A stretch of 64,000 nucleotides of DNA. It comes from a bacterium. GTDB taxonomy: Bacteria; Joyebacterota; Joyebacteria; Joyebacterales; Joyebacteraceae. Numbering within the stretch: position 1 is the first letter of the stretch; each line of letters starts with the position of its first letter. Below the pieces are notes generated by a model that was given only the letters and a program-made list of their open reading frames with translations, ran no database searches and had not been told where the DNA came from. Below are positions 5,295 to 27,180 of this stretch, in pieces. Location: positions 1 to 64,000 of the forward strand of contig JALGZK010000011.1 of assembly GCA_025774935.1 (NCBI GenBank), written 5' to 3'. The translations under genes were made by a program, and so were the position numbers.

Positions 5295-6017
5295 CTAGCG
5301 CCCGCCGAACGCGAGGAGGTAGAACCCGACGCCGATGAGGAGGACACCGGCTGTGACTCGGATGGCCGGCGCCGCCTTTCGGACAGCCGCGCTCAGCTTC
5401 TCGACACCGAGTCCAACACCGATCAGGGCGCCGGCGAGAGGCAGCCCGTATCCGATCGCGAACGCTGCGAGGAGCGCCGCGCCGGCTGCGGCGTGAGCAT
5501 GGAGTGTCGCCATCCCGATGACGAGGAAGAGCGCGGGATTGCAGCCTGCCGAGCAGACCGTGACACCGCCGCCGATGGCAAAGCCGGCGAGCATCGCCTG
5601 TCTCGGACCGACGGGCGCGTCGCCACGGAGGATTCCGGGGGTCGGGATCTTGAGCGGGACCAGCCCGAGGGTCGCGGACCCAAGGAGGACCATGATGAGG
5701 CCGGCGAAGATCCTCCAGTACTTCCCCAGTGCCGCGCCGAGGGTCTGGCTGAGGAGGCCTGCGGCCGCACCGATCACAGCGAGCGCGACCGCCGTGCCCA
5801 GCATGAACGAGAGCGCACCGGCGATGACCGCGCGGCGTTGGCTCCCGCCGGGGAGGCCCTTCCCGGCCAGCGAGCCGGAGTAGCCTGCAATGGCGCCGAT
5901 CACGGGGAGATTGCAGCAGTTCGTGACCGCCCCCACGATCCCGAGCGCGAATGCGGCGGCGAGGACCGTCGGCGTGATCGACGGAGAGGCCAGGGCCTGG
6001 CTGATCCACTCCGGCAC
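5295..6017 (-). CDS. CcdA/DsbD-like polytopic thiol-redox membrane protein
   Basis: 240 residues from a GTG with GGAAGGAG upstream. About six transmembrane helices are arranged in two halves, each starting with a cysteine motif: TNCCNLPVIGAIAGYSG (about 32-48) and CSAGCNPALFLVIG (about 155-168). This is the layout of CcdA/DsbD-beta proteins, which pass electrons from cytoplasmic thioredoxin to an extracytoplasmic thiol protein. The canonical CcdA motifs have single cysteines, so the paired CC and CxxxC forms are variants. It follows the thioredoxin-like gene by 36 bases on the same strand, and the two are probably one operon. The exact substrate is not clear. Confidence 0.75.
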   Translation of the reverse strand: MPEWISQALASPSITPTVLAAAFALGIVGAVTNCCNLPVIGAIAGYSGSLAGKGLPGGSQRRAVIAGALSFMLGTAVALAVIGAAAGLLSQTLGAALGKYWRIFAGLIMVLLGSATLGLVPLKIPTPGILRGDAPVGPRQAMLAGFAIGGGVTVCSAGCNPALFLVIGMATLHAHAAAGAALLAAFAIGYGLPLAGALIGVGLGVEKLSAAVRKAAPAIRVTAGVLLIGVGFYLLAFGGR

Positions 6018-10477: not shown

Positions 10478-10806
10478 GGCAGCCCCGGGCCGCTTCCCGC
10501 AGCGAGCCCAGTCCGCATTCTAGTCCCCCAGACGGCCTCCCAGAGGCCCTCCGGACCGCCCCGCGCGACTCCCTCCTTTCCCGAGACGGAGCATTTTGCA
10601 CCAAGTGCACATGCGGCCACTCTCTACTTGCCTAAACTTGTATATTGCGTTCAGGCGGCTGAGGTGGTATCATAAAGTCTTGACGGTAGCACATACCTTG
10701 GGAGCACTGAGCCGGGGGCGGTCGCCCGGACGTTCTTGTTCCGTGTGGCCGATGTCCTCGTTTGAGGTTCGTACCCTCGGAGTCGTGCAAGCTCGGGGAG
10801 GGACCG
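10478..10806. other. 329-base intergenic region
   Basis: It holds the promoter at 10645-10673 for the first two-gene module. The stretch 10478-10640 is GC-rich with no coding frame or clear hairpin that I can support. Confidence 0.5.
10645..10673 (+). promoter_or_regulatory. Promoter of module 1 (small sorted protein plus fibre-like protein)
   Basis: -35 TTGCGT (10645-10650), 17-base spacer, -10 TATCAT (10668-10673) preceded by TGG as an extended -10. The predicted leader to the ATG at 10807 is about 130 bases, nearly the same as in module 2. Confidence 0.6.
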
Positions 10807-11331
10807 ATGAGACTGAAAGCGTTGCTGGCCGTTGCCAGTATCCTGTTGATTCTCCCGGCCGCGGGGGTGGCACAGTTCGTGATGCCCTACAGCGTTGTGG
10901 GGAGCGGCGGCGGAGCGATGACGGGGGCTAGCCACCAGATGAACGGAACGGTTGGCCAGGCCGCGATCGGCGTCGTCAGCGGGCCGAACAACACCAACGA
11001 GATCGGCTTCTGGTATCGCCCCGGTTGGATCCTGACCGGAGTGGAGGACGCGGGTGATCTGTACCCCAACACCTTCTGGCTCGGACAGAACCACCCGAAT
11101 CCTTTCAACCCGGTGACGACGATCCAGTTCGGTCTGCCCAAGAGCGCGCACGTCACGATGAAGCTCTACGACGCTTCCGGTCGTGAGGTGATGACGCTCG
11201 TCGACGGGCAGGTCGACGCGGGCTTCCACGACACCGTCGTCGACGGGTCGGGTCTCGCAAGCGGCGTCTACTTCTGCAGGATGGTCTCGGAGAGGTTCGT
11301 CGAGGCGAGGAAGCTGGTGTTGCTGAAGTAG
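10807..11331 (+). CDS. Small secreted protein with type-IX-like C-terminal sorting domain (module 1)
   Basis: 174 residues from an ATG preceded by GGGGAGGGACC. A signal peptide (ALLAVASILLILPAAGVAQ) precedes a Gly-rich motif, VVGSGGGAMTGASHQMNG then TVGQAAIGVVSGP and EIGFWY. That motif is frequent in secreted proteins of FCB-type bacteria. The C-terminal 85 residues carry QNHPNPFNPVTTIQFGLP, YDASGREVMTLVDG, LASGVYFCRM and a final RKLVLLK, the pattern of the FlgD-Ig/type-IX sorting domain. Little more than signal, motif and sorting domain is present. The gene is duplicated at 15319 with the same length. It probably acts with the fibre-like protein 119 bases downstream. Confidence 0.8.
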   Translation: MRLKALLAVASILLILPAAGVAQFVMPYSVVGSGGGAMTGASHQMNGTVGQAAIGVVSGPNNTNEIGFWYRPGWILTGVEDAGDLYPNTFWLGQNHPNPFNPVTTIQFGLPKSAHVTMKLYDASGREVMTLVDGQVDAGFHDTVVDGSGLASGVYFCRMVSERFVEARKLVLLK

Positions 11332-11450
11332 CGGGTGCGGAACGTCCCCTCGACGCCGTTCGAGGCCGGGGTGGAGTGAGGCGGCGGGCGTCGGCGGGCT
11401 GACTGAGAGAGATGAGACGAGCGAGAAGAGCGGAGAAGGAGGCTCTTGGA

Positions 11451-14400
11451 ATGAGACGGGCACTTGTCCTTTGCGCGCTGCTGACGCTGATCGCTGGGCC
11501 GCAGGTGGTCTCTGCGGACGTCCCTGAGCTGATCAGCTACCAGGGAGTGCTTCTGGATGGCACGGGCGTCCCTGTGGAGGATGGTAGCTATCTCCTTACG
11601 TTCCAGATCTACGACGTCGACACGGGCGGGACGCCGCTCTGGGGAGAAGGCCAGCTGGTCACGGTGACCGACGGCGTGTTCGAGGCAGTCCTGGGAAGCA
11701 TCACGCCAATCTTCCTCCAGTTCAACGTTCCCTACTGGCTCGGTGTGTCGATCGGTGGCGACGCCGAGCTCACCCCGCGAACCGAACTGACGACATCGCC
11801 GTACGCGTTCCGCGCGAAGTACGCGGATTTCGCGGCGGACCTCGACTGGGAGACCGCCGGCGACGACATCTACCGCACCCTGGGCAACGTGGGGATCGGC
11901 ACGGACACTCCGGTCTACATCCTCGACGTCGCCGACACGATGCGCGCCACCGGCTTCGTGATGCCGACGGGCGCCACCGATGGCTACGTCCTGACCTCCG
12001 ACGCGACGGGCGTCGCGAGCTGGCAGCCCGGAGGGGGTGCCGGTACCGGCGACATCACCGGCGTGGAGGCGGGCGCTGGCATGACCGGCGGCGGGGACAC
12101 GGGCGACGTGATCCTCGACGTCGGGGCTGGTGACGGCATCGCGGTCGCAGCGGATGACGTGTCTGTGGCCGTCGCTGACATCGCTGGAGACGGGCTCTCC
12201 GACGATGGTCTGAATGACCTCCAGGTGAACACAGGCGCGGGCCTCACGATCGACACCGACGCCGTTGCCCTCGGGCCGACCTACCTCGACGGCAGCGCGT
12301 ACGACGCCGTCTTCGTGAACGAGGGACAGGCCGACGCCATTACGGCCGACATGCTCCTTCCGGATGTCGTGTCGAGCATCTCCGGCGTGTCGAACGACGC
12401 GGGCGACGTGGCCCTCGTGGCGGGAACGAACGTCGTGATCACCCCAGACGACGTCGGAAACACGATCACGATCGATGCGACGGGCGGCGGGGATGGCGAC
12501 ATCACCGCGGTGAACGCCAACGACGGTCTCGTGGGCGGTGGCGACACCGGCGACGTGGACCTCGCGGTCGCCGATGGGGCGGGCTTCGTGGTCCTCCCCG
12601 ACAGCATGTACGTCAACACCGGCGTCGGGCTCGAGGTGGACGCGGACGCGGTCGAGCTGACCGACGCGTACGCCACGGGACTCTCCTACGACTCCAGGTT
12701 CGTCAACGAGAACGAGCCGGACGCGATCTCGCTCGCCATGATCCAGCCGGACGTGGTCTCGAGCGTAGACGGAGTCGCGAACGATGGCGGTGACGTCGAC
12801 TTCGTCGCGGGCGCAGGCGTCACGATCACGCCGGACGACGACCTGAACACAATCACTTTCGAGGCGGCCGGAGGCGGCGACATCACCGCCGTGATAGCCG
12901 GTGCGGGCCTCGCGGGCGGCGGGACCGAGGGAGACGTGACGCTTGACGTCTCGGGAGTCACGGCGGACCTCATCACTCCCGACATCGTCTCGAGCGTGGA
13001 CGGGGTCGTGAACGACGGTGGCGACATCGACCTCATCGCGGGCACGAACATCACGATCACGCCAGACGACGTCGGGAACACGATCACGATCGACGCCGCC
13101 GCGGGAGATGATGGGGACTGGACGATCTCCGGCTCCGACCTGATTCCAGCGGTTGCCGGGAACGTCGGCATCGGCGACGCGACTCCGGCCTACAAGCTCA
13201 CGGTCGAGGCCGAGAACAGCAAGACCGCGAACTTCCTCTTGACCGAGACGAACGACACCGGCGAGGGACGCGCGGCCGTGCACGCGCAGCGCAACCGCAC
13301 GCTTCTGAACAGCGGCGCCACGTTCGCCTACGACCAGACGAACAACGCGATCGTCGGCTACAACGCATACGGCGACCCGCGGACCTTCGGCGTGGCCGGT
13401 TACACTGAGTTCACGTTGAACCGGACAGGCGGCGTGTTCGGCTCGAACTCCGACGCCTCCTGCTGGGGCGCGCTCGGGTTCTTCGATTTCTTCGGCGAGA
13501 GCTACGGCATGTATACGCCGAACATGGTGTGGATCGGCGGCAACGTCGGCATCGGCACCGAAGGCGCTCCCCAGAATAAGCTCGACGTCAACGGGACGCT
13601 GAGGGCCAACGTTCTCAGGCTCACCAACGGCGTGACGTCGGGGTACTTTCTCCAGACGGACTCGGATGGCGTCGGGAGCTGGCAGCCGATCCCGCCTGAC
13701 GACGACTGGACCGTCTCCGGCTCGGACATGTACTCGACGGTCGCCGGAAACGTCGGTATTGGCACAACGACCCCGGCCACGAAGCTCGAGGTCACGGGTA
13801 CGGTGACCGCGACGGCTTTCGTGGGCGACGGCAGTGGTCTCACCAACCTGCCCGCAGGCGTCGAGACCGATCCTGTATTCGGTGCGTCCGAGGCGGCGCT
13901 CCTCGTGGCCGGCGACAAGGCGAACTACGACGCTGCCTTCGGTTGGGGCGACCACGGCCTCGCGGGCTACCTCACGAGCTACACGGAGACCGATCCGGTC
14001 TACGGCGCGTCCGAGGCAGCGCTGCTCGTCGCGGGCGACAAGGCGAACTACGACGCTGCCTTCGGTTGGGGCGACCACGGCCTCGTGGGCTACCTCACGA
14101 GCTACACGGAGACCGATCCGGTCTACGGCGCGTCCGAGGCGGCGCTGCTCGTGGCCGGCGACAAGGCGAACCTGGACACCGCGTTCGGATGGGGTGACCA
14201 CAGCACCGCAGGCTATCTCACGAGCCAGTACTGGACGCAGACCGGTTCTGATGTCTACTACAACACGGGCGACGTCGGCATCGGGACGTCCACTCCGGGA
14301 GCCGCGTTGGATGTCGTTTCAACAGGCACGGGTCTCGCAGTGAGTGTCACAGCGAACTCCTTCGTGACCGCCGCCATCATGGGCGTGAGCACGACGCAGG

Positions 14401-14960
14401 ACATCGGCATCGGCGAGACCGTGCTCGAGCTCGCCGCGGGCACGAGTGCGAACGACGACTCTTACTTCATCGAGGCGCTCCGCGGAACCGACCCGGTCTT
14501 CCGCGTCTGGGGCGACGGTGACGTGACTGCAGACGGCGCTTTCACCGGCGGGGGAGCGGATTTCGCCGAGATGTTCGCGGTGAGCACCGGTGCAGGTTCC
14601 TCGGAGCCGGGCGACGTCATGGTTATCGACCCGTCTGCCACGAGGAAGATCGTGAAGTCGAGCAAGGCGCGGTCGACGCTCGTGAGCGGAATCTACAGCA
14701 CGAAGCCTGGGTTCATCGGGTCTGAGGACTGGAGCCGGAACGCGAGCGACGAGATTCCGCTCGCAGTGGTCGGCATCGTGCCGTGCAAGGTCTCGTGCGA
14801 GAATGGCGCGATCACTCCGGGTGACCTCCTCGTGACTTCGAGCATTCCCGGTCACGCCATGCGGGATGAGACCCCGCGTCCCGGGACAATCCTTGGTAAG
14901 GCCCTCGAGGGGCTCGATTCGGGCACTGGTGTGGTGAAGGTGCTCGTGACCCTCCAGTAA
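11451..14960 (+). CDS. Large secreted fibre-like repeat protein (module 1)
   Basis: 1,169 residues from an ATG with GGAGG upstream. A signal peptide is followed by the N-terminal domain seen in many FCB fibre-like proteins (ISYQGVLLDGTG, then LGVSIGGDAELTPRTEL and SPYAFRAKY). The middle is a long chain of tail-fibre-like beta repeats (VSSVDGVANDGGDVDFVAG, ITPDDVGNTITIDA) and GNVGIGT motifs. Three near-identical 41-residue tandem repeats follow (about 805-927). The C-terminal ~140 residues (ADFAEMFAVS ... IPLAVVGIVPCKVSC ... GTILGKALEGLDSG) resemble the terminal domain of peptidase-G2-like fibre proteins. It likely forms a surface fibre. No catalytic residues can be named with confidence. Confidence 0.8.
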   Translation: MRRALVLCALLTLIAGPQVVSADVPELISYQGVLLDGTGVPVEDGSYLLTFQIYDVDTGGTPLWGEGQLVTVTDGVFEAVLGSITPIFLQFNVPYWLGVSIGGDAELTPRTELTTSPYAFRAKYADFAADLDWETAGDDIYRTLGNVGIGTDTPVYILDVADTMRATGFVMPTGATDGYVLTSDATGVASWQPGGGAGTGDITGVEAGAGMTGGGDTGDVILDVGAGDGIAVAADDVSVAVADIAGDGLSDDGLNDLQVNTGAGLTIDTDAVALGPTYLDGSAYDAVFVNEGQADAITADMLLPDVVSSISGVSNDAGDVALVAGTNVVITPDDVGNTITIDATGGGDGDITAVNANDGLVGGGDTGDVDLAVADGAGFVVLPDSMYVNTGVGLEVDADAVELTDAYATGLSYDSRFVNENEPDAISLAMIQPDVVSSVDGVANDGGDVDFVAGAGVTITPDDDLNTITFEAAGGGDITAVIAGAGLAGGGTEGDVTLDVSGVTADLITPDIVSSVDGVVNDGGDIDLIAGTNITITPDDVGNTITIDAAAGDDGDWTISGSDLIPAVAGNVGIGDATPAYKLTVEAENSKTANFLLTETNDTGEGRAAVHAQRNRTLLNSGATFAYDQTNNAIVGYNAYGDPRTFGVAGYTEFTLNRTGGVFGSNSDASCWGALGFFDFFGESYGMYTPNMVWIGGNVGIGTEGAPQNKLDVNGTLRANVLRLTNGVTSGYFLQTDSDGVGSWQPIPPDDDWTVSGSDMYSTVAGNVGIGTTTPATKLEVTGTVTATAFVGDGSGLTNLPAGVETDPVFGASEAALLVAGDKANYDAAFGWGDHGLAGYLTSYTETDPVYGASEAALLVAGDKANYDAAFGWGDHGLVGYLTSYTETDPVYGASEAALLVAGDKANLDTAFGWGDHSTAGYLTSQYWTQTGSDVYYNTGDVGIGTSTPGAALDVVSTGTGLAVSVTANSFVTAAIMGVSTTQDIGIGETVLELAAGTSANDDSYFIEALRGTDPVFRVWGDGDVTADGAFTGGGADFAEMFAVSTGAGSSEPGDVMVIDPSATRKIVKSSKARSTLVSGIYSTKPGFIGSEDWSRNASDEIPLAVVGIVPCKVSCENGAITPGDLLVTSSIPGHAMRDETPRPGTILGKALEGLDSGTGVVKVLVTLQ
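13863..14231 (+). repeat. Three tandem 123-base coding repeats
   Basis: Copies begin at 13863, 13986 and 14109, exactly 123 bases apart. Each encodes 41 residues starting ETDPV(F/Y)GASEAALLVAG and containing FGWGDHGLAGYLTS. Copies 1 and 2 are almost identical at the DNA level, and copy 3 diverges in its second half. The unit keeps the frame and lies inside the module 1 fibre gene. Confidence 0.9.
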
Positions 14961-15318: not shown

Positions 15319-15843
15319 ATGAGGCGCATGACAACGCTCCTTGTTGTCGCGATGATCTTCCTGCTCCTGCCTCTTGCTTCGAGCGGACAGATCACCCTGC
15401 CGTACGATGTCGTGGGGTGCGGGGGTGGGGAGATGAGCGGCGTCGGCAACGTGGTCCGGGGGACGCTCGGCCAGGGCTGCATCGGCGTCGCCAGCGGCCC
15501 GGGGAACATTCACGAGATCGGCTTCTGGTACCTCTTCGGGGAGCCGGGCACGGGAATCGACGAGGGTGACCTCACCCCAACGAGGTACTGGCTCGGTCAG
15601 AACCACCCGAACCCGTTCAACCCGATGACGACGCTCAAGTTCTCATTGCCCCAGCTCACTCGCGTGATCATGAAGCTCTACGACGCTTCGGGGCGCGAGG
15701 TTCGCACACTCGTAGACGAGGAGCTCCCGGCCGGTCACCACAGTACTGTCGTAGAGGCGCAGGGACTCGCGTCCGGCATCTACTTCTGCCGCATGGTGGC
15801 GGGTAGCTTCGTGGAAACTCGGAAGCTCGTACTACTCAAATAG
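15319..15843 (+). CDS. Small secreted protein with type-IX-like C-terminal sorting domain (module 2)
   Basis: 174 residues from an ATG with AAAGGAGGGAACG upstream. It is a paralogue of the protein at 10807, with the same length and architecture. There is a signal peptide (LLVVAMIFLLLPLASSGQ), the Gly-rich segment VVGCGGGEMSGVGNVVRG then TLGQGCIGVASGP and EIGFWY, and a sorting domain with QNHPNPFNPMTTLKFSLP, YDASGREVRTLVDE and RKLVLLK. Unlike its paralogue, it has two extra cysteines in the Gly-rich segment that could pair. It is the first gene of the second module. Function unknown. Confidence 0.8.
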   Translation: MRRMTTLLVVAMIFLLLPLASSGQITLPYDVVGCGGGEMSGVGNVVRGTLGQGCIGVASGPGNIHEIGFWYLFGEPGTGIDEGDLTPTRYWLGQNHPNPFNPMTTLKFSLPQLTRVIMKLYDASGREVRTLVDEELPAGHHSTVVEAQGLASGIYFCRMVAGSFVETRKLVLLK

Positions 15844-15906
15844 GAGCGGGCCGGTCCTCAGCGCGGCCCACAGGACCGCGCTTGGGGGCGAGCCCAGGCC
15901 CGCTCC
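15843..15906 (+). repeat. Branched inverted repeat between the two module 2 genes
   Basis: A perfect 10-base outer stem (GGAGCGGGCC at 15843-15852 with its complement at 15897-15906) encloses an inner stem (GGTCCT at 15853-15858 with AGGACC at 15872-15877). It begins on the last base of the stop codon and lies 63 bases before the next ATG. No U-tract follows, so an mRNA-stability, processing or partial-termination element is more likely than a full terminator. Confidence 0.55.
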
Positions 15907-15968
15907 GACCGACCTTGGACTCAGGGTGTACTGGTCGGATGCGCGGCTGGACTGAAGGAGGTGCGCAA

Positions 15969-18900
15969 ATGAAACGGGCTCTTGTTCTCTGCGTGCTGCT
16001 GGCGATGGCGACGGCGCCCCAGGTCGTCGCGGCAGCCGTGCCGCAGACGATGAGCTACCAGGGGGTGCTCCAGGACGGATCCGGGAACAACGTGCCGGAC
16101 GGGAGCTACTCGCTGAACTTCCGGATCTACAACGTTGCCGTGGGCGGGAGTTCTCTGTGGTTCGAGGCGCAGACAGTGTCCGTCGTAGATGGGATCTTCG
16201 ACGTGATCCTCGGAAGTACGACACCTCTGACCTTGGCGTTCGATGCCCCTTACTGGCTGGGCATTCAGGTAGGAGCCGACCCCGAGCTGACCCCTCGCAT
16301 GGAGATGACGTCAGCGGCCTACTCACTGAACGCGCAGCACGCCGAGACGGTTGAAATCAGCGGACTCGGAGGCGACGGCCTCGTCGAGGATGGAACCGAA
16401 CTCGATGTCAATCCGGGCACGGGACTCGAGGTGGCCGGCGATGAGGTTGGCCTGACGACCCCATACGCGAATGGCAGCGCCTACGATGGTGTGTTCGTCA
16501 ACGAGGGCCAGGCAGGCTCCGTGACGTCGGGAATGATCGCGCCGGACGTTGTATCGAGTGTCGACGGTGTGTCGAACGACGCCGGCGACGTCGATCTCGT
16601 CGAGGGCGCGAACATTACCATCACACCCAACGACAGCGCGAACACGATCACGATCGCGGCCGCAGGCGGAGGCGACATCTCGGGCGTCACCGCGGGGAAT
16701 GGTCTCGTCGGGGGCGGTACGTCAGGTGACGTGACGCTCGATGTCAGTACGGCGACCGGTCTCCAGGTGGTGGGCGACGCGGTTCAGCTGACGACGCCCT
16801 ACGCGAGCGGCAGCGCGTACAATGGGGTGTTCGTCAATGAAGGTCAGACGAACGGGGTGACGGCCGGGATGATCGCGCCGGACGTGGTCGGGAGCGTAGA
16901 CGGAGTGTCGAACGACGCGGGGAACATCGATCTCCTGCCCGGCTCGAATATCACGATCACGCCGAATGACACCGCGAACACGATCACAATCGCTGCAACG
17001 GGCGTCGGCGACATCACGGCGGTCGACGCCGGAGCGGGTCTCGGCGGAGGCGGTTCCGTCGGTGCCGTCACGGTCAACGTCAATACTGGAACGGGCATTC
17101 AGGTGAGCAGCGATGCCGTGGCGCTGACGACGCCCTACGCGAGCGGCAGCGCCTATGACGGCGTGTTCGTCAACGAAGGACAGGCAAACTCCGTGACGAC
17201 GGGCATGGTCACGCCCGCCATCGTCTCGAGCGTCGACGGCGTCGTCAACGACGGTGGGAACGTCGACTTCGTCGCCGGATCGAACATGACGATCACGCCG
17301 AACGATGGGGCCAATACCATCACGTTCGCTACGAACGGGAGCATTGGCGGCAGCGGGACACCCAGCTACCTTCCGAAGTTCACTGCCCCGTCGACCCTCG
17401 GGAACTCGATCATGTACGAGAGCGGAGGGACGATCTACATCAGCGCCGCTTCGCGAGACGCGAAGGCGAGGGATCTGGAGACCGACGAGCGGAAGGACGG
17501 CGGAGCGTTCTCGAGGAGTCGCCTCCCTCGGCAGCTGGACATCCACGGCAATGACACCTGGACGATCTACGCCGAGGTGAGCGACGTCGACGGTCTTGAC
17601 GGAGAGGCTGCGGTCTTCGGCTACCGCACGGACTCCAACGCCGGAACGGGCTACGCTATCAACACGACGAACAACGGCGTAGTCGGCTACTCGCTCTGGG
17701 GAGATCCCTACACGTTCGGAGTGGCTGGCTACACGTGGGGTGACTTCTCGAACTGCGGCGGCGTCCTCGGCTCCGACGACACGGGGAGCTACTGGGGTTC
17801 GCTCGGATACAGGGATTCTGGCGGATCGTGGTGGGGTGCCTACACCCCGGACAACGCGTACGTCGGAGGAACGCTTCGGCTCCCGGCGGGGGCCTCGTCC
17901 GGTCTCGTCCTGACCTCGGACGCCAGCGGGAACGCGAGCTGGCAGTCCACCCCCTCAGGTGACATCACGGCCGTCACCGCGGGCAACGGCCTCAGTGGCG
18001 GTGGAGGATCGGGAGCGGTGACGCTCCACGTAGGTGCCGGTGATGGCATCGACGTCTCTTCGTCGTCGGTTGCCGTCGACGTCACGGATTTCGCCGGCAC
18101 CGGTCTTGGTGAAAGCTCCAACAACCTGCAGGTGAACACGGGAAGCGGGCTCGGCCTCAGCGGCGACGCGGTGTACGTTCCTTCGGGGGCGATCAACGCC
18201 GGACATCTCGCCACGAATTCCGTTACGCCCGCAGAGATTGCGACCGACGCCGTCGGCGCCCCTGAGATCGCCGCGAACGCGGTCGGCCAGAGCGAGATAG
18301 CCACGGGTGGTGTCGCGTCGGCGGAGGTCGCCGACAACACGCTCACCGCGAGCGACCTCGCGCCTGGTTCCGTCGGCTTCAGTGAACTTCAGGATCCGCT
18401 CACGCTCTCCAGCGCCTGGAACATCAACTCGACCGGCAGCAACGCGCTGGAGGTGGAGTATACGGGCGCCAGCGGTGACAGGATCGCGGTGCGCGGGGAG
18501 TCCACCCCGACGGACTACTACGGCATCGGCGGGGAGTTCGAGGGTGGGTACTACGGATCACGGCACTACTGCTACGGCGCCAGCTCAAGCTACTACACGG
18601 CGCTCTATGCCTCAGCATCCGCCGCTTCCGGGACCAAGTACGGCGTCTACGCACGTGCGGTGGGGACGGGCGGCACGAAGTACGGCGTCTACGGTTACGC
18701 TGAATCCGGCGGCACCGCCTACGCCGGGTACTTCAACGGCACGCTCCACGCGACGACCGCCACCGCGAACGTCAAGGCGTTCAAGATCGACCACCCCCTC
18801 GATCCCGCGAACAAGTACCTGTACCACAGCAGCGTCGAGAGCGCGGACATGATGAACATCTACAACGGGAACGTCGAGCTCGACGGAGGCGGGAAGGCGT

Positions 18901-19232
18901 GGGTTCAGATGCCCGACTGGTTCGATGCGCTGAACGCCGACTTCCGCTACCAGCTTACCGCGATCGGGGCGCCGGGGCCGAACCTGTACATCTCCGAGAA
19001 GATGTCCGGCGGCCGGTTCCAGATCGCGGGTGGCGAGCCCGGTATGGAGGTCTCGTGGCAGGTGACGGGAATCCGCCACGACCCCGTGGCCGAGGCGCAC
19101 CGGATTGAGGTCGAGCAGGACAAGTCCGCGGAAGAGGTCGGCAAGTACCTGACGCCTGAAGTCTACGGCTTCTCGGCAACGCAGGCGGTGGACTACATCC
19201 CGCCGAAGCCGGGCGAGTCGCAGAGGCACTAA
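15969..19232 (+). CDS. Large secreted fibre-like repeat protein (module 2)
   Basis: 1,087 residues from an ATG with GGAGGT upstream. The signal peptide and N-terminal domain are paralogous to those of the 11451 protein (MSYQGVLQDGSGNN, LGIQVGADPELTPRMEM). The repeats are also shared (VSSVDGVSNDAGDVDLVEG, NITITPNDSANTITIAA). The second half has its own modules: VGGTLRLPAGASSG, then AGHLATNSVTPAEIATDAVG and a Tyr/Gly-rich stretch. The C-terminal ~155 residues differ entirely from module 1. They start at KAFKIDHPLDPANKYLYHS and contain WVQMPDWFDALNADFRYQL and GAPGPNLYISEKM, a conserved domain of bacterial fibre-like proteins. The protein probably forms a surface fibre with a swapped tip. Confidence 0.8.
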   Translation: MKRALVLCVLLAMATAPQVVAAAVPQTMSYQGVLQDGSGNNVPDGSYSLNFRIYNVAVGGSSLWFEAQTVSVVDGIFDVILGSTTPLTLAFDAPYWLGIQVGADPELTPRMEMTSAAYSLNAQHAETVEISGLGGDGLVEDGTELDVNPGTGLEVAGDEVGLTTPYANGSAYDGVFVNEGQAGSVTSGMIAPDVVSSVDGVSNDAGDVDLVEGANITITPNDSANTITIAAAGGGDISGVTAGNGLVGGGTSGDVTLDVSTATGLQVVGDAVQLTTPYASGSAYNGVFVNEGQTNGVTAGMIAPDVVGSVDGVSNDAGNIDLLPGSNITITPNDTANTITIAATGVGDITAVDAGAGLGGGGSVGAVTVNVNTGTGIQVSSDAVALTTPYASGSAYDGVFVNEGQANSVTTGMVTPAIVSSVDGVVNDGGNVDFVAGSNMTITPNDGANTITFATNGSIGGSGTPSYLPKFTAPSTLGNSIMYESGGTIYISAASRDAKARDLETDERKDGGAFSRSRLPRQLDIHGNDTWTIYAEVSDVDGLDGEAAVFGYRTDSNAGTGYAINTTNNGVVGYSLWGDPYTFGVAGYTWGDFSNCGGVLGSDDTGSYWGSLGYRDSGGSWWGAYTPDNAYVGGTLRLPAGASSGLVLTSDASGNASWQSTPSGDITAVTAGNGLSGGGGSGAVTLHVGAGDGIDVSSSSVAVDVTDFAGTGLGESSNNLQVNTGSGLGLSGDAVYVPSGAINAGHLATNSVTPAEIATDAVGAPEIAANAVGQSEIATGGVASAEVADNTLTASDLAPGSVGFSELQDPLTLSSAWNINSTGSNALEVEYTGASGDRIAVRGESTPTDYYGIGGEFEGGYYGSRHYCYGASSSYYTALYASASAASGTKYGVYARAVGTGGTKYGVYGYAESGGTAYAGYFNGTLHATTATANVKAFKIDHPLDPANKYLYHSSVESADMMNIYNGNVELDGGGKAWVQMPDWFDALNADFRYQLTAIGAPGPNLYISEKMSGGRFQIAGGEPGMEVSWQVTGIRHDPVAEAHRIEVEQDKSAEEVGKYLTPEVYGFSATQAVDYIPPKPGESQRH

Positions 19233-19311
19233 GAAGCGGCAAGCGCGGGCGGTGTCGGGCAGGCGAGCGCATGACAGGTGCGGTGACCTGACGCCGTGCG
19301 TGAAACAAAAG

Positions 19312-19343
19312 GAGGCCGGTCGACGTTCGCGTCGACCGGCCTC
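19312..19343. terminator. Bidirectional terminator with UUCG loop
   Basis: A perfect 14-base inverted repeat (GAGGCCGGTCGACG, 19312-19325, with its complement at 19330-19343) closes on a TTCG tetraloop. It is flanked by AAAA on the left and a CT-rich run on the right. It lies between two convergent genes and can serve both. Confidence 0.8.
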
Positions 19344-19371
19344 TGTCCTTCTGTCGGTTGGCGACAGGCGT

Positions 19372-21012
19372 CTACGCCTCCCCACCCCTCCACGCGATCA
19401 ACGTCTCGATCTCCTTCGCCAACTTCTCCTCGTCGCCTTGGGAGAACCCGAGGTGGCGGTAGATGACGCGCCCCTCGTGGTCGACGACCACGGTGACCGG
19501 AATGCCGGTCACCTTGTAGGCGTCGAAGACCTCACGGTCCTCGTCACTCAGCACGATGTGGCGGACGTTGTTCTCGTTGAGGAAGTCGCCCGCTGCGGGC
19601 GGCAGCGTTCCGGAGTTGATGGAGACGACCTTGAACCCATCAGCTTCGTACTTCTCGTAGAGCTCCACCAGGTGCGGCAACTCCGCACGGCACGGTCCTC
19701 AGGTGAAGCCCCAGAAGGCCAACAGCACGACGTCGCCCTTGAGGTCCGCGAGCGCGACCGTCTCTCCGTCGCGGCTCGGGAGCGAGAACCCGGGCGCCAT
19801 GGTGACGCCGTCGTACCGTCTCTCGGCGATGAGCTCGTCGAGCGCGTCGGCGCTGCCGTCCCTCGCGGTGAGCATCTCAGCGAGGATCGCTCGGGCGGGA
19901 TCGTCAGCGTCGACCGATCTGGCGACGAGCACCGTGAGGAAGTCGATCGCGCGATCGTCCATTCCGCCGGCACGGTAGACCTCGATCAGGTGGTCGACCG
20001 TGAAGTTCCCGGACGCCGGCGTCTCCGGCGAGAGGGCCAGGGCCTTCTCGAGGTGCGCGGCAGCCCTCTCGGTGTTCCCGGCCTTGAACTGCGCCCAGCC
20101 GGCGGTGTCGAGTGCCATCGTGGAGTCGAACGCCGAGGGGGCGAGCTCGACCGACCGCTCCGCCATTCGGGCGGCCGTCTCGGGCTCGACACCTCTCTGG
20201 GTCATGTCGTATGCGATGTTGTTCAGGACGTCCCATCCCGTGAACCCCTTCGACGCCGCGAGCGCTTCGACAGCAGCGAGAGCGACGTCGGGATCCTCTT
20301 CGATCGCGAGACGATACACGCTGGCCTGGAGCACGCCCTTGACGATCGGGTCGTCGGCCTCCGCGATGTGGGACTCAGCCGCGGCAATCGCGGCATCGAG
20401 CCCGTCGCGCTCGGCGACCTCGCCGAGAAGCGCGCCGTACGCCCTGTCCAGCATCGACGGCCACATCTGAGCGTCCTCGGTTCCCGCCTCGGATCGGGCG
20501 AGCCCGACGCGGGCGACCTCGACAGTGAGCTCCTTGTCGGTGAGCTCGCTGCCCGAGTGGTACCACGTCAACCAGATGTGCGGTGTCTGGACCGCGGTGT
20601 CGTCGGCGATGAGGTCACGCGCGAGCTCTTCGGCGCGTGCCACGTGCGCCGGATCGTCGGTCGCGACGAGGGCGCGGTCGTACCTGGACAGCACGAAGCC
20701 GTGGCGCTCCGGTGTCGCCGGAACCTCGTAGAGCTTCTCCCACGCCTCGAAGGCGGCGTCCTGCCCGCCGGCTTCCTCGGCGGCAGAGACGGCCGTGTCG
20801 ATCGCCCGTCCCAGGATATCGCCGGCCTCCTCGGGTGCCTCTGCGTTCGCGGTCACGAAGGCGAGGGCTTCCTCGGATCGTGCGGCGGCGTCCTCGATGG
20901 CCATGATCCTGTCCAGCTCGTGCTCCAGGGCCGCGAGGCGCTGCTCGGAGCAGCCCCAGAACGCGCCCAGCACGAGGGCTACCACAAAGGCGAGCGCAAT
21001 TGCCCGTCTCAT
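19372..21012 (-). CDS. TlpA-type thioredoxin lipoprotein, probable selenoprotein (UGA read as Sec at residue 438)
   Basis: Translated through one in-frame TGA (19701-19699) this is a 546-residue protein. The N-terminus is a signal sequence ending in GAFWGC, a plausible lipoprotein site. Residues ~25-390 are helical and TPR-like. Residues ~400-546 are a complete TlpA/redoxin domain: APGFSLPSRDGETVALADL, VVLLAFWGFT, then U-G-P-C, AELPHLVELYEKYEADGF, VTGIPVTVVVDHEGRVIYRH. The TGA falls exactly on the first cysteine of the CGPC active site, and the resolving cysteine and everything after remain in frame. A hairpin of bacterial SECIS type starts 11 bases after the TGA. A plain stop would remove the active site. 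Its likely role is disulfide reduction outside the cytoplasm. Confidence 0.85.
19672..19698 (-). promoter_or_regulatory. SECIS-like hairpin directly after the in-frame UGA
   Basis: On the minus strand, ten bases after the TGA, GTGCGG (19688-19683) pairs perfectly with CCGCAC (19677-19672) around the loop AGTTG. An ACC/GGT pair below could extend it past an internal loop. The apical loop begins 17 bases after the UGA and has G as its second base. Both fit the known rules for bacterial SECIS elements read by SelB. Confidence 0.7.
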
Positions 21013-21129
21013 CAGAACCTCCCTCAGTAGGGGACCTTGCCTGATTCGGAAGTCATCCTACACGAGTTTGAAATTGACTTCCACCCATTCCTTCGGTACC
21101 CTATCTTCTGTGGTGACAGGGAGATGCGG

Positions 21130-21810: not shown

Positions 21811-21911
21811 GCCGGGCGAAGAGGAGGATTTCGCGAGGTCATCGTTTGGCGTAGGCAGAGACGAGGAGAACACGGGTGGAGCCAGGAGATATAGGGACGG
21901 GAGGTGTTGAG

Positions 21912-22103
21912 ATGCCGAATACGTTTCCGGCTTGCCGCATGTGTGAGAAGGGAGTCCTGATTCCCCTATCGGACTACGGGCGTGACGGGGCGGCCATCAC
22001 CTACAAGGCGTGGGTTTGCTCCAACCCGAACTGCGGTTACCACTTGAGGATCGACAACGGCGAAATCAGCCGTGGTACCAGAGTGAACGAAGCCGCCAAG
22101 TAG
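21912..22103 (+). CDS. Small zinc-ribbon protein
   Basis: 63 residues from an ATG six bases after GGGAGGT; an upstream GTG at 21876 would add 12 residues without a better ribosome site. Four cysteines form a zinc ribbon, CRMCEKG near the N-terminus and CSNPNCGYHLRIDNGEI in the second half. Similar tiny ribbons are often nucleic-acid-associated or regulatory, but nothing here fixes the role. It lies between nfi and the HAD phosphatase gene on the same strand. Confidence 0.65.
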   Translation: MPNTFPACRMCEKGVLIPLSDYGRDGAAITYKAWVCSNPNCGYHLRIDNGEISRGTRVNEAAK

Positions 22104-26154: not shown

Positions 26155-26190
26155 GCTTGGGGCGCGGGTCCGGAGGTGCGGGGAACGAGC

Positions 26191-27180
26191 GTGCGTGAGT
26201 TCGAGCTCATAGAGGCCATCAGAAGGAAGATCGGCGCCCCCGGCCGCGGGACGGTCGTCGGCATCGGTGACGACGCGGCGGTCTACGAACCGCCGGGCGG
26301 GCTCGAGCTCTTCACGTCCGACGCGTTCGTGGAGGACGTGCACTTCCGGAGGGACTACTCCACGTTCCTCGAGATCGGCGCGAAGTGCATGGTCGCGAAC
26401 GTGAGCGACATAGCGGCGATGGGTGGGTTCCCGACGCGCGCGACTGTCTCGCTCGCGGTGCCCTCGGACGTCGGGGAGGAGGAGATCGGCGAGCTCTACG
26501 ACGGCCTCATCGAGGTGGCGAAGAAGTACGCGGTCGAGATCGTGGGGGGAGACATCGTCGGATCACCGAGCGGACTGGTCGTGGCGATCGCGCTCGTGGG
26601 AGCAGCCGACGGCGACCGGGTCGTGCTTCGGGGAGGCGCGGTCGTCGGAGACGCCGTCCTAGTGACGGGAGAGCTCGGGGGAGCGCAGGCGGGATTGATC
26701 GCGCTCGAGAAGGGACTGCCGAGCGAGGGCGACATTGCAAAGGCGTTGGCGAGACACCGGCTCCCGGCTCCGCGGGTGGCCGAGGCACAGGCGCTTCTCG
26801 ACGTGGCGACGCCGCACTCGATGATCGACATCAGCGACGGACTCGGTTCGGAGGTCTGGCACATAGCCGACGAGAGCGGCGTCGGGATCGAGCTCTGGGA
26901 AGCGAAGATCCCCGTGTCCCCGGGGGCGACGGAGGTGGCGAAGCGGCTGGGACTCGACGACCTAGACCTCGCGGTCTCGAGCGGGGAGGAGTTCGAGCTC
27001 GTCGTGACCGTGCCGCCGTCGGAGGTCGATCGGGCGATCGAGCACGTGACGACCGTGACCGGCACGCCGCTCTCCTGGGTGGGGAAGGTCGTCGCGGCCG
27101 GCGAGGGGTGCAGGCTCGAGCGCGGAGACGGGACCTTCGAGCCGCTTGGGCGCACGGGGTACGAGCACCTGACGGACTGA
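26191..27180 (+). CDS. thiL: Thiamine-monophosphate kinase
   Basis: 329 residues from a GTG that gives the family-typical opening REFELIEAIRR. A GTG at 26176 would sit on top of the ribosome site. ThiL motifs are present: VGIGDDAAVYEP, TSDAFVEDVHFRRDYSTF, NVSDIAAMGGFPT, VGGDIVGSP, and MIDISDGLGSEVWHI. The enzyme makes thiamine pyrophosphate from thiamine monophosphate with ATP. It starts 36 bases after the M20 gene. Well-supported call. Confidence 0.93.
   Translation: MREFELIEAIRRKIGAPGRGTVVGIGDDAAVYEPPGGLELFTSDAFVEDVHFRRDYSTFLEIGAKCMVANVSDIAAMGGFPTRATVSLAVPSDVGEEEIGELYDGLIEVAKKYAVEIVGGDIVGSPSGLVVAIALVGAADGDRVVLRGGAVVGDAVLVTGELGGAQAGLIALEKGLPSEGDIAKALARHRLPAPRVAEAQALLDVATPHSMIDISDGLGSEVWHIADESGVGIELWEAKIPVSPGATEVAKRLGLDDLDLAVSSGEEFELVVTVPPSEVDRAIEHVTTVTGTPLSWVGKVVAAGEGCRLERGDGTFEPLGRTGYEHLTD

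Follow-up and report, generated by a model that had tools for sequence, protein, structure and literature searches.

The locus and its interrupted reading frame

The stretch of DNA analysed here, 64 kb long and referred to below as the window, carries on its minus strand a gene that is interrupted by one in-frame TGA and that we interpret as encoding a selenoprotein. The features relevant to this interpretation are the following:

5295-6017, minus strand: membrane protein of the DsbD_TM/CcdA-like type, which might supply electrons to extracytoplasmic redoxins
19372-21012, minus strand: predicted selenoprotein gene, 546 residues including Sec438, single in-frame TGA, TAG stop
20944-21012, minus strand: N-terminal hydrophobic export signal or anchor (residues 1-23), in which Cys21 is a questionable lipobox residue (alignment and sequence inspection)
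19813-20943, minus strand: helical, TPR-like region spanning about residues 24-400 (pLDDT mostly above 90 in the AlphaFold2 model)
19384-19800, minus strand: TlpA/ResA-like redoxin domain, about residues 405-543, with UGPC at 438-441 and Ile-Pro at 504-505
19699-19701, minus strand: UGA codon, read as selenocysteine U438, position 1 of the UGPC active site
19672-19688, minus strand: bSECIS hairpin GUGCGG-AGUUG-CCGCAC, loop at 19682-19678

Translation of the frame bore out what the first-pass annotation had noticed: the TGA at 19701-19699 is codon 438 of 546, lies in the active-site stretch FWGFT-U-GPC (residues 433-441), and is followed by 108 further codons before the TAG stop. Among all TGA codons of the window, it is the only one with a coding-like in-frame composition on both sides. 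The dN/dS values of the family copies were 0.14-0.33 on the 3' side of the Sec codon, versus 0.15-0.29 in the 120 codons before it, indicating that, as judged from codon substitutions, the sequence after the Sec codon is under purifying selection similar to that of the upstream region. A plus-strand ORF covering the same region (19252-21030, 592 aa) was rejected as a shadow, as in the nearest relative its best match was 60% identical, versus 81% for the minus-strand frame. Gene callers for which TGA is always a stop would end the protein at Sec438, 109 residues short and deprived of its catalytic domain, in most genomes of the phylum.

Residues 405-532 matched the Pfam families Redoxin (2.1e-24) and AhpC-TSA (1.6e-23). 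The AlphaFold2 model, obtained with a ten-sequence alignment (pLDDT 89), consists of a 19-helix array followed by a thioredoxin fold, with residue 438 placed immediately before a helix (439-458) and with the Ile-Pro at 504-505 as the probable cis-Pro. The top Foldseek match of the model was ResA (TMt 0.91), and hmmsearch of PDB sequences retrieved the Chlorobium DsbE-like protein 3gl3 at 2e-33, as well as ResA. In the model, the C-terminal domain is thus folded like ResA. Position 438 aligns with Cys both in related copies and in Pfam and PDB redoxins, in line with the annotation's proposal that U438 stands in for a conserved Cys.

The N-terminal part, about 390 residues in length, was modelled as a helical array resembling TPR, and Pfam TPR matches near residues 300-330 were below gathering (TPR_2, 24.7 vs. 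27; TPR_6, 22.9 vs. 26.3). In a search of 290 genomes, this region was found at full length in this phylum only, and in partial stretches elsewhere, as would be expected of TPR-like repeats. The fusion of such a region to a redoxin had been called unusual, which holds insofar as neither Pfam nor NCBIfam has a curated family that matches the full-length architecture. The description of the protein as a lipoprotein fared less well. A Cys at the lipobox position is present only in genus g1 and in G008a (FWGC, LWGC, IAGC, LAGC), with IAGC and LAGC in two relatives. The FWG that precedes Cys21 in the window copy makes an atypical lipobox, and the other genera have no Cys there. The protein may at best be a lipoprotein in genus g1 and G008.

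The downstream hairpin and the selenocysteine machinery

The rules for bSECIS elements listed in PMC13188914 include an upper stem of 4-16 pairs, a loop of 3-9 nt with G in one of its first two positions, a distance of 16-37 nt from the UGA, and an MFE of at most -7.5. The hairpin in the window begins 10 nt past the TGA and has 6 pairs, a 5-nt loop (AGUUG) with G at loop position 2, a spacing of 16, and an energy of -9 to -10 kcal/mol. Its stem is short and by folding energy alone it is unremarkable (z about -1), and the case for it rests for this reason on covariation. In all 12 family copies with TGA, a 6-pair stem encloses A-G-U-U-G/U, starting from base 14 when the T of TGA is counted as 1; the AGUU of the loop is invariant, and so is the distance from the TGA. 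All stem cells of these copies are Watson-Crick (72/72), with two-sided changes at three pairs (C-G/U-A, G-C/A-U, and C-G/U-A). Neither the percentage of paired cells nor the covariation score of the stem was matched by any of 500 shuffles, or by partners slid along the alignment. Most control Cys redoxins had no rule-conforming hairpin, or had weak ones only. An Rfam scan of the window gave no match at the gathering threshold, and at a lax threshold only chance matches were obtained over 19372-19760. The 6-pair hairpin with a loop G at the bSECIS distance, as originally claimed, is thus real, fits the published constraints, and covaries.

The stem also leaves a trace in the protein. Residue 443 (Ala GCG, Val GTG, or Thr ACG) tracks bases in the codons of Pro446 and residue 447, while residue 447 (His, Arg, or Tyr) tracks the third base of the Arg442 codon. 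As both residues follow their stem-partner bases, the RNA stem limits the amino acids usable at these positions, which makes this SECIS element a compact case of RNA structure constraining protein sequence.

The presence of selA, selB, selC, and selD, which the first-pass annotation had named as a check, was established for all four genes in the genome to which the window belongs (G000, a 3.24-Mb draft of 96% completeness). The selA match scored 441 bits, with TIGR00474 above its cut-off, and that of selB 345 bits, against a cut-off of 242. The selD gene itself contains an in-frame TGA (ECAGUASKLGP, with Sec as residue 11 within the match), and the same scan found a hairpin of the same class, UGGGUCC-GGA-GGACCUG, 17 nt past its Sec codon. 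Directly after selD lies a tRNA-Sec gene, with the anticodon tca according to ARAGORN. A SelD-like match within the window (26176-27180) was rejected, being the thiamine-phosphate kinase ThiL.

TGA has been reassigned in some uncultured phyla, a precedent for supposing that here too it is a sense codon (e.g., for Trp, Gly, or Cys) and that selenium plays no part. Yet 14 further called genes in the window end in TGA, and the relatives in G001, G004, and G010 have it as their natural stop; moreover, the sole TGA that is read through sits at a redox Cys and is accompanied by a bSECIS, in a genome with complete Sec machinery. Since TGA serves as a stop, its code has not been reassigned, and we regard this explanation as refuted, with a negligible residual probability. 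In a simple gene call of the window, TAG was the commonest stop (25/47), followed by TGA (15) and TAA (7); among the 12 Sec copies of the family, 11 likewise end in TAG.

Sec and Cys copies across the phylum

The sample of the phylum comprised 20 genomes, all of them draft assemblies, from one family and 8 genera. SelA was found in 17 and tRNA-Sec in 19 of these genomes, and a profile search with the protein recovered full-length relatives in 16. At the Sec codon, 12 copies from 7 of the 8 genera have TGA (G000, G001, G002, G003, G006, G007, G008 twice, G009, G016, G018, and G019), and six have TGT or TGC (the second copy of G018, and those of G004, G005, G010, G011, and G014). G018 therefore has one copy of each kind. 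No homologue ending at the Sec codon was found.

These counts bear on one objection to a selenoprotein, namely, that the TGA is a nonsense mutation in a Cys-type TlpA gene, or a sequencing or assembly error, and the gene a pseudogene or an artefact. TGC and TGT are one base away from TGA, Cys copies do exist, and every genome considered here is a draft. However, 12 copies in 7 genera share the TGA, purifying selection on its 3' side is strong, and the hairpin covaries. The recurrence of TGA in the other copies refutes this objection, so we consider it scarcely credible. Taken together, the comparative sequence data strongly support the reading of U438 as selenocysteine.

A SelA match was obtained in all genomes that contain a Sec copy. 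Two genomes with Cys copies only, G005 and G010, both drafts, have no SelA match. Among the six Cys copies, the hairpin is intact in two (G011 and G005) and lacks at least one pair in four (the second copy of G018, G014, G010, and G004). The hairpin can therefore outlast Sec. The G005 relative (L028:2782-2841) reads CGAS at the active site, having lost the second active-site Cys in addition to Sec; its genome has tRNA-Sec and no SelA match.

In a tree of the 18 proteins, which had no outgroup, Sec copies fell on either side of the midpoint root; four Sec/Cys state changes were counted on the best tree, of which two are forced by well-supported branches. We lean slightly towards a history in which the family had Sec at, or close to, the base of the phylum and exchanged it for Cys on several occasions, the intermediates of which can still be seen. 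If this is true, the family would constitute a natural series of stages in the loss of Sec. An enzyme with Sec and Cys forms, caught at several stages of exchange, bears on why Sec is kept or lost, and the family documents the use of selenocysteine across a small uncultured phylum.

TGA codons at the position of a redoxin active-site Cys were also seen outside the phylum, in the UxxC TlpA-like sequences L113, L114, L115, L116, L117, and L118, several of which carry a hairpin of the AGUU or GUU type, equally far from the TGA. In L043, a second redoxin-type match has UDSC and a strong SECIS-like hairpin.

Proposed function, gene context, and known systems

The product of the gene is very probably a TlpA/ResA-type thiol-disulfide oxidoreductase that is exported and attached to the membrane, and into which Sec would be inserted at UGA438 by the SelA, SelB, SelD, and tRNA-Sec of the same genome, guided by the bSECIS 10 nt past the UGA. 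Sec438 and Cys441 would be expected to form a selenenyl-sulfide, and, outside the cytoplasm, to reduce (or exchange) disulfides or oxidised thiols. A CcdA/DsbD-type membrane protein could supply the electrons. The genome encodes two DsbD_TM-family proteins, one of them within the window (5295-6017); this gene and the selenoprotein gene share no operon. The helical TPR-like region may dock a partner protein, or space the redoxin domain away from the membrane.

Decoding of UGA as Sec competes with termination, so the UGA could act both as a terminator and as a Sec codon, with the 437-residue helical domain produced under selenium shortage as a functional protein in its own right. In the model, the upstream part indeed folds as a complete domain, but the fused form is the sole product of the Cys copies, and there is no sign of selection for a short form. 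We consider such a selenium-dependent dual product improbable, and favour the full-length oxidoreductase as the product of the gene.

The selenoprotein gene is divergent from a neighbouring cluster, the order of which is kept across the phylum. The cluster encodes endonuclease V, a 75-residue Cys-rich protein, a HAD hydrolase, an ACPS-type transferase, NAD(P)HX epimerase/dehydratase, an M20 peptidase, ThiL, and a C25 peptidase; no evident redox partner was found among these genes. The 75-residue protein (21876-22103, plus strand; 63 residues from an inner ATG) has two CxxC-like pairs, is zinc-ribbon-like, and is 82-96% identical across the phylum where the match spans its length, with no match in Pfam or NCBIfam. 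Elsewhere in the window, Por_Secre_tail, the type IX secretion sorting domain, was found on two short plus-strand ORFs (10762-11331 and 15319-15843), each followed by an ORF of more than 1100 residues (11412-14960 and 15882-19232) with no Pfam match.

Among known proteins, the Cys-type extracytoplasmic ResA, TlpA, and CcmG resemble the window protein in fold, in the position of CxxC, and in the conserved Glu and Pro after the motif, but differ in having Cys instead of Sec and in lacking the helical region of about 390 residues; against the ResA model NF002854, the window protein scored 92.5 bits, under the curated cut-off of 170. NF041054 (ResA-like WAxxUGC motif-containing protein) likewise combines a ResA-like domain with a Sec motif, although that motif is UGC, as opposed to UGPC here, and the window protein reached 56.2 bits against a cut-off of 300. 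With a TlpA/redoxin thioredoxin fold and a predicted Sec first in UxxC, the window protein belongs with the UxxC TlpA/redoxin selenoproteins. One of these, the bacterial "thiol-disulfide isomerase-like protein" (cd02966), has been on record since 2005 (PMC1088965; PMC13188914) and shares the TlpA-like thioredoxin fold and the Sec position; its description in these sources mentions no helical N-terminal fusion. Another, the "redoxin family protein" (PF08534; PMC9312934, PMC13188914), has in common, as far as its listing goes, UxxC and the Redoxin domain, which is the best Pfam match here. Selenoproteins of this class are thus already catalogued, and what is new is that the domains are fused in this way, that the fusion is conserved across a phylum, and that Sec and Cys have been exchanged repeatedly.
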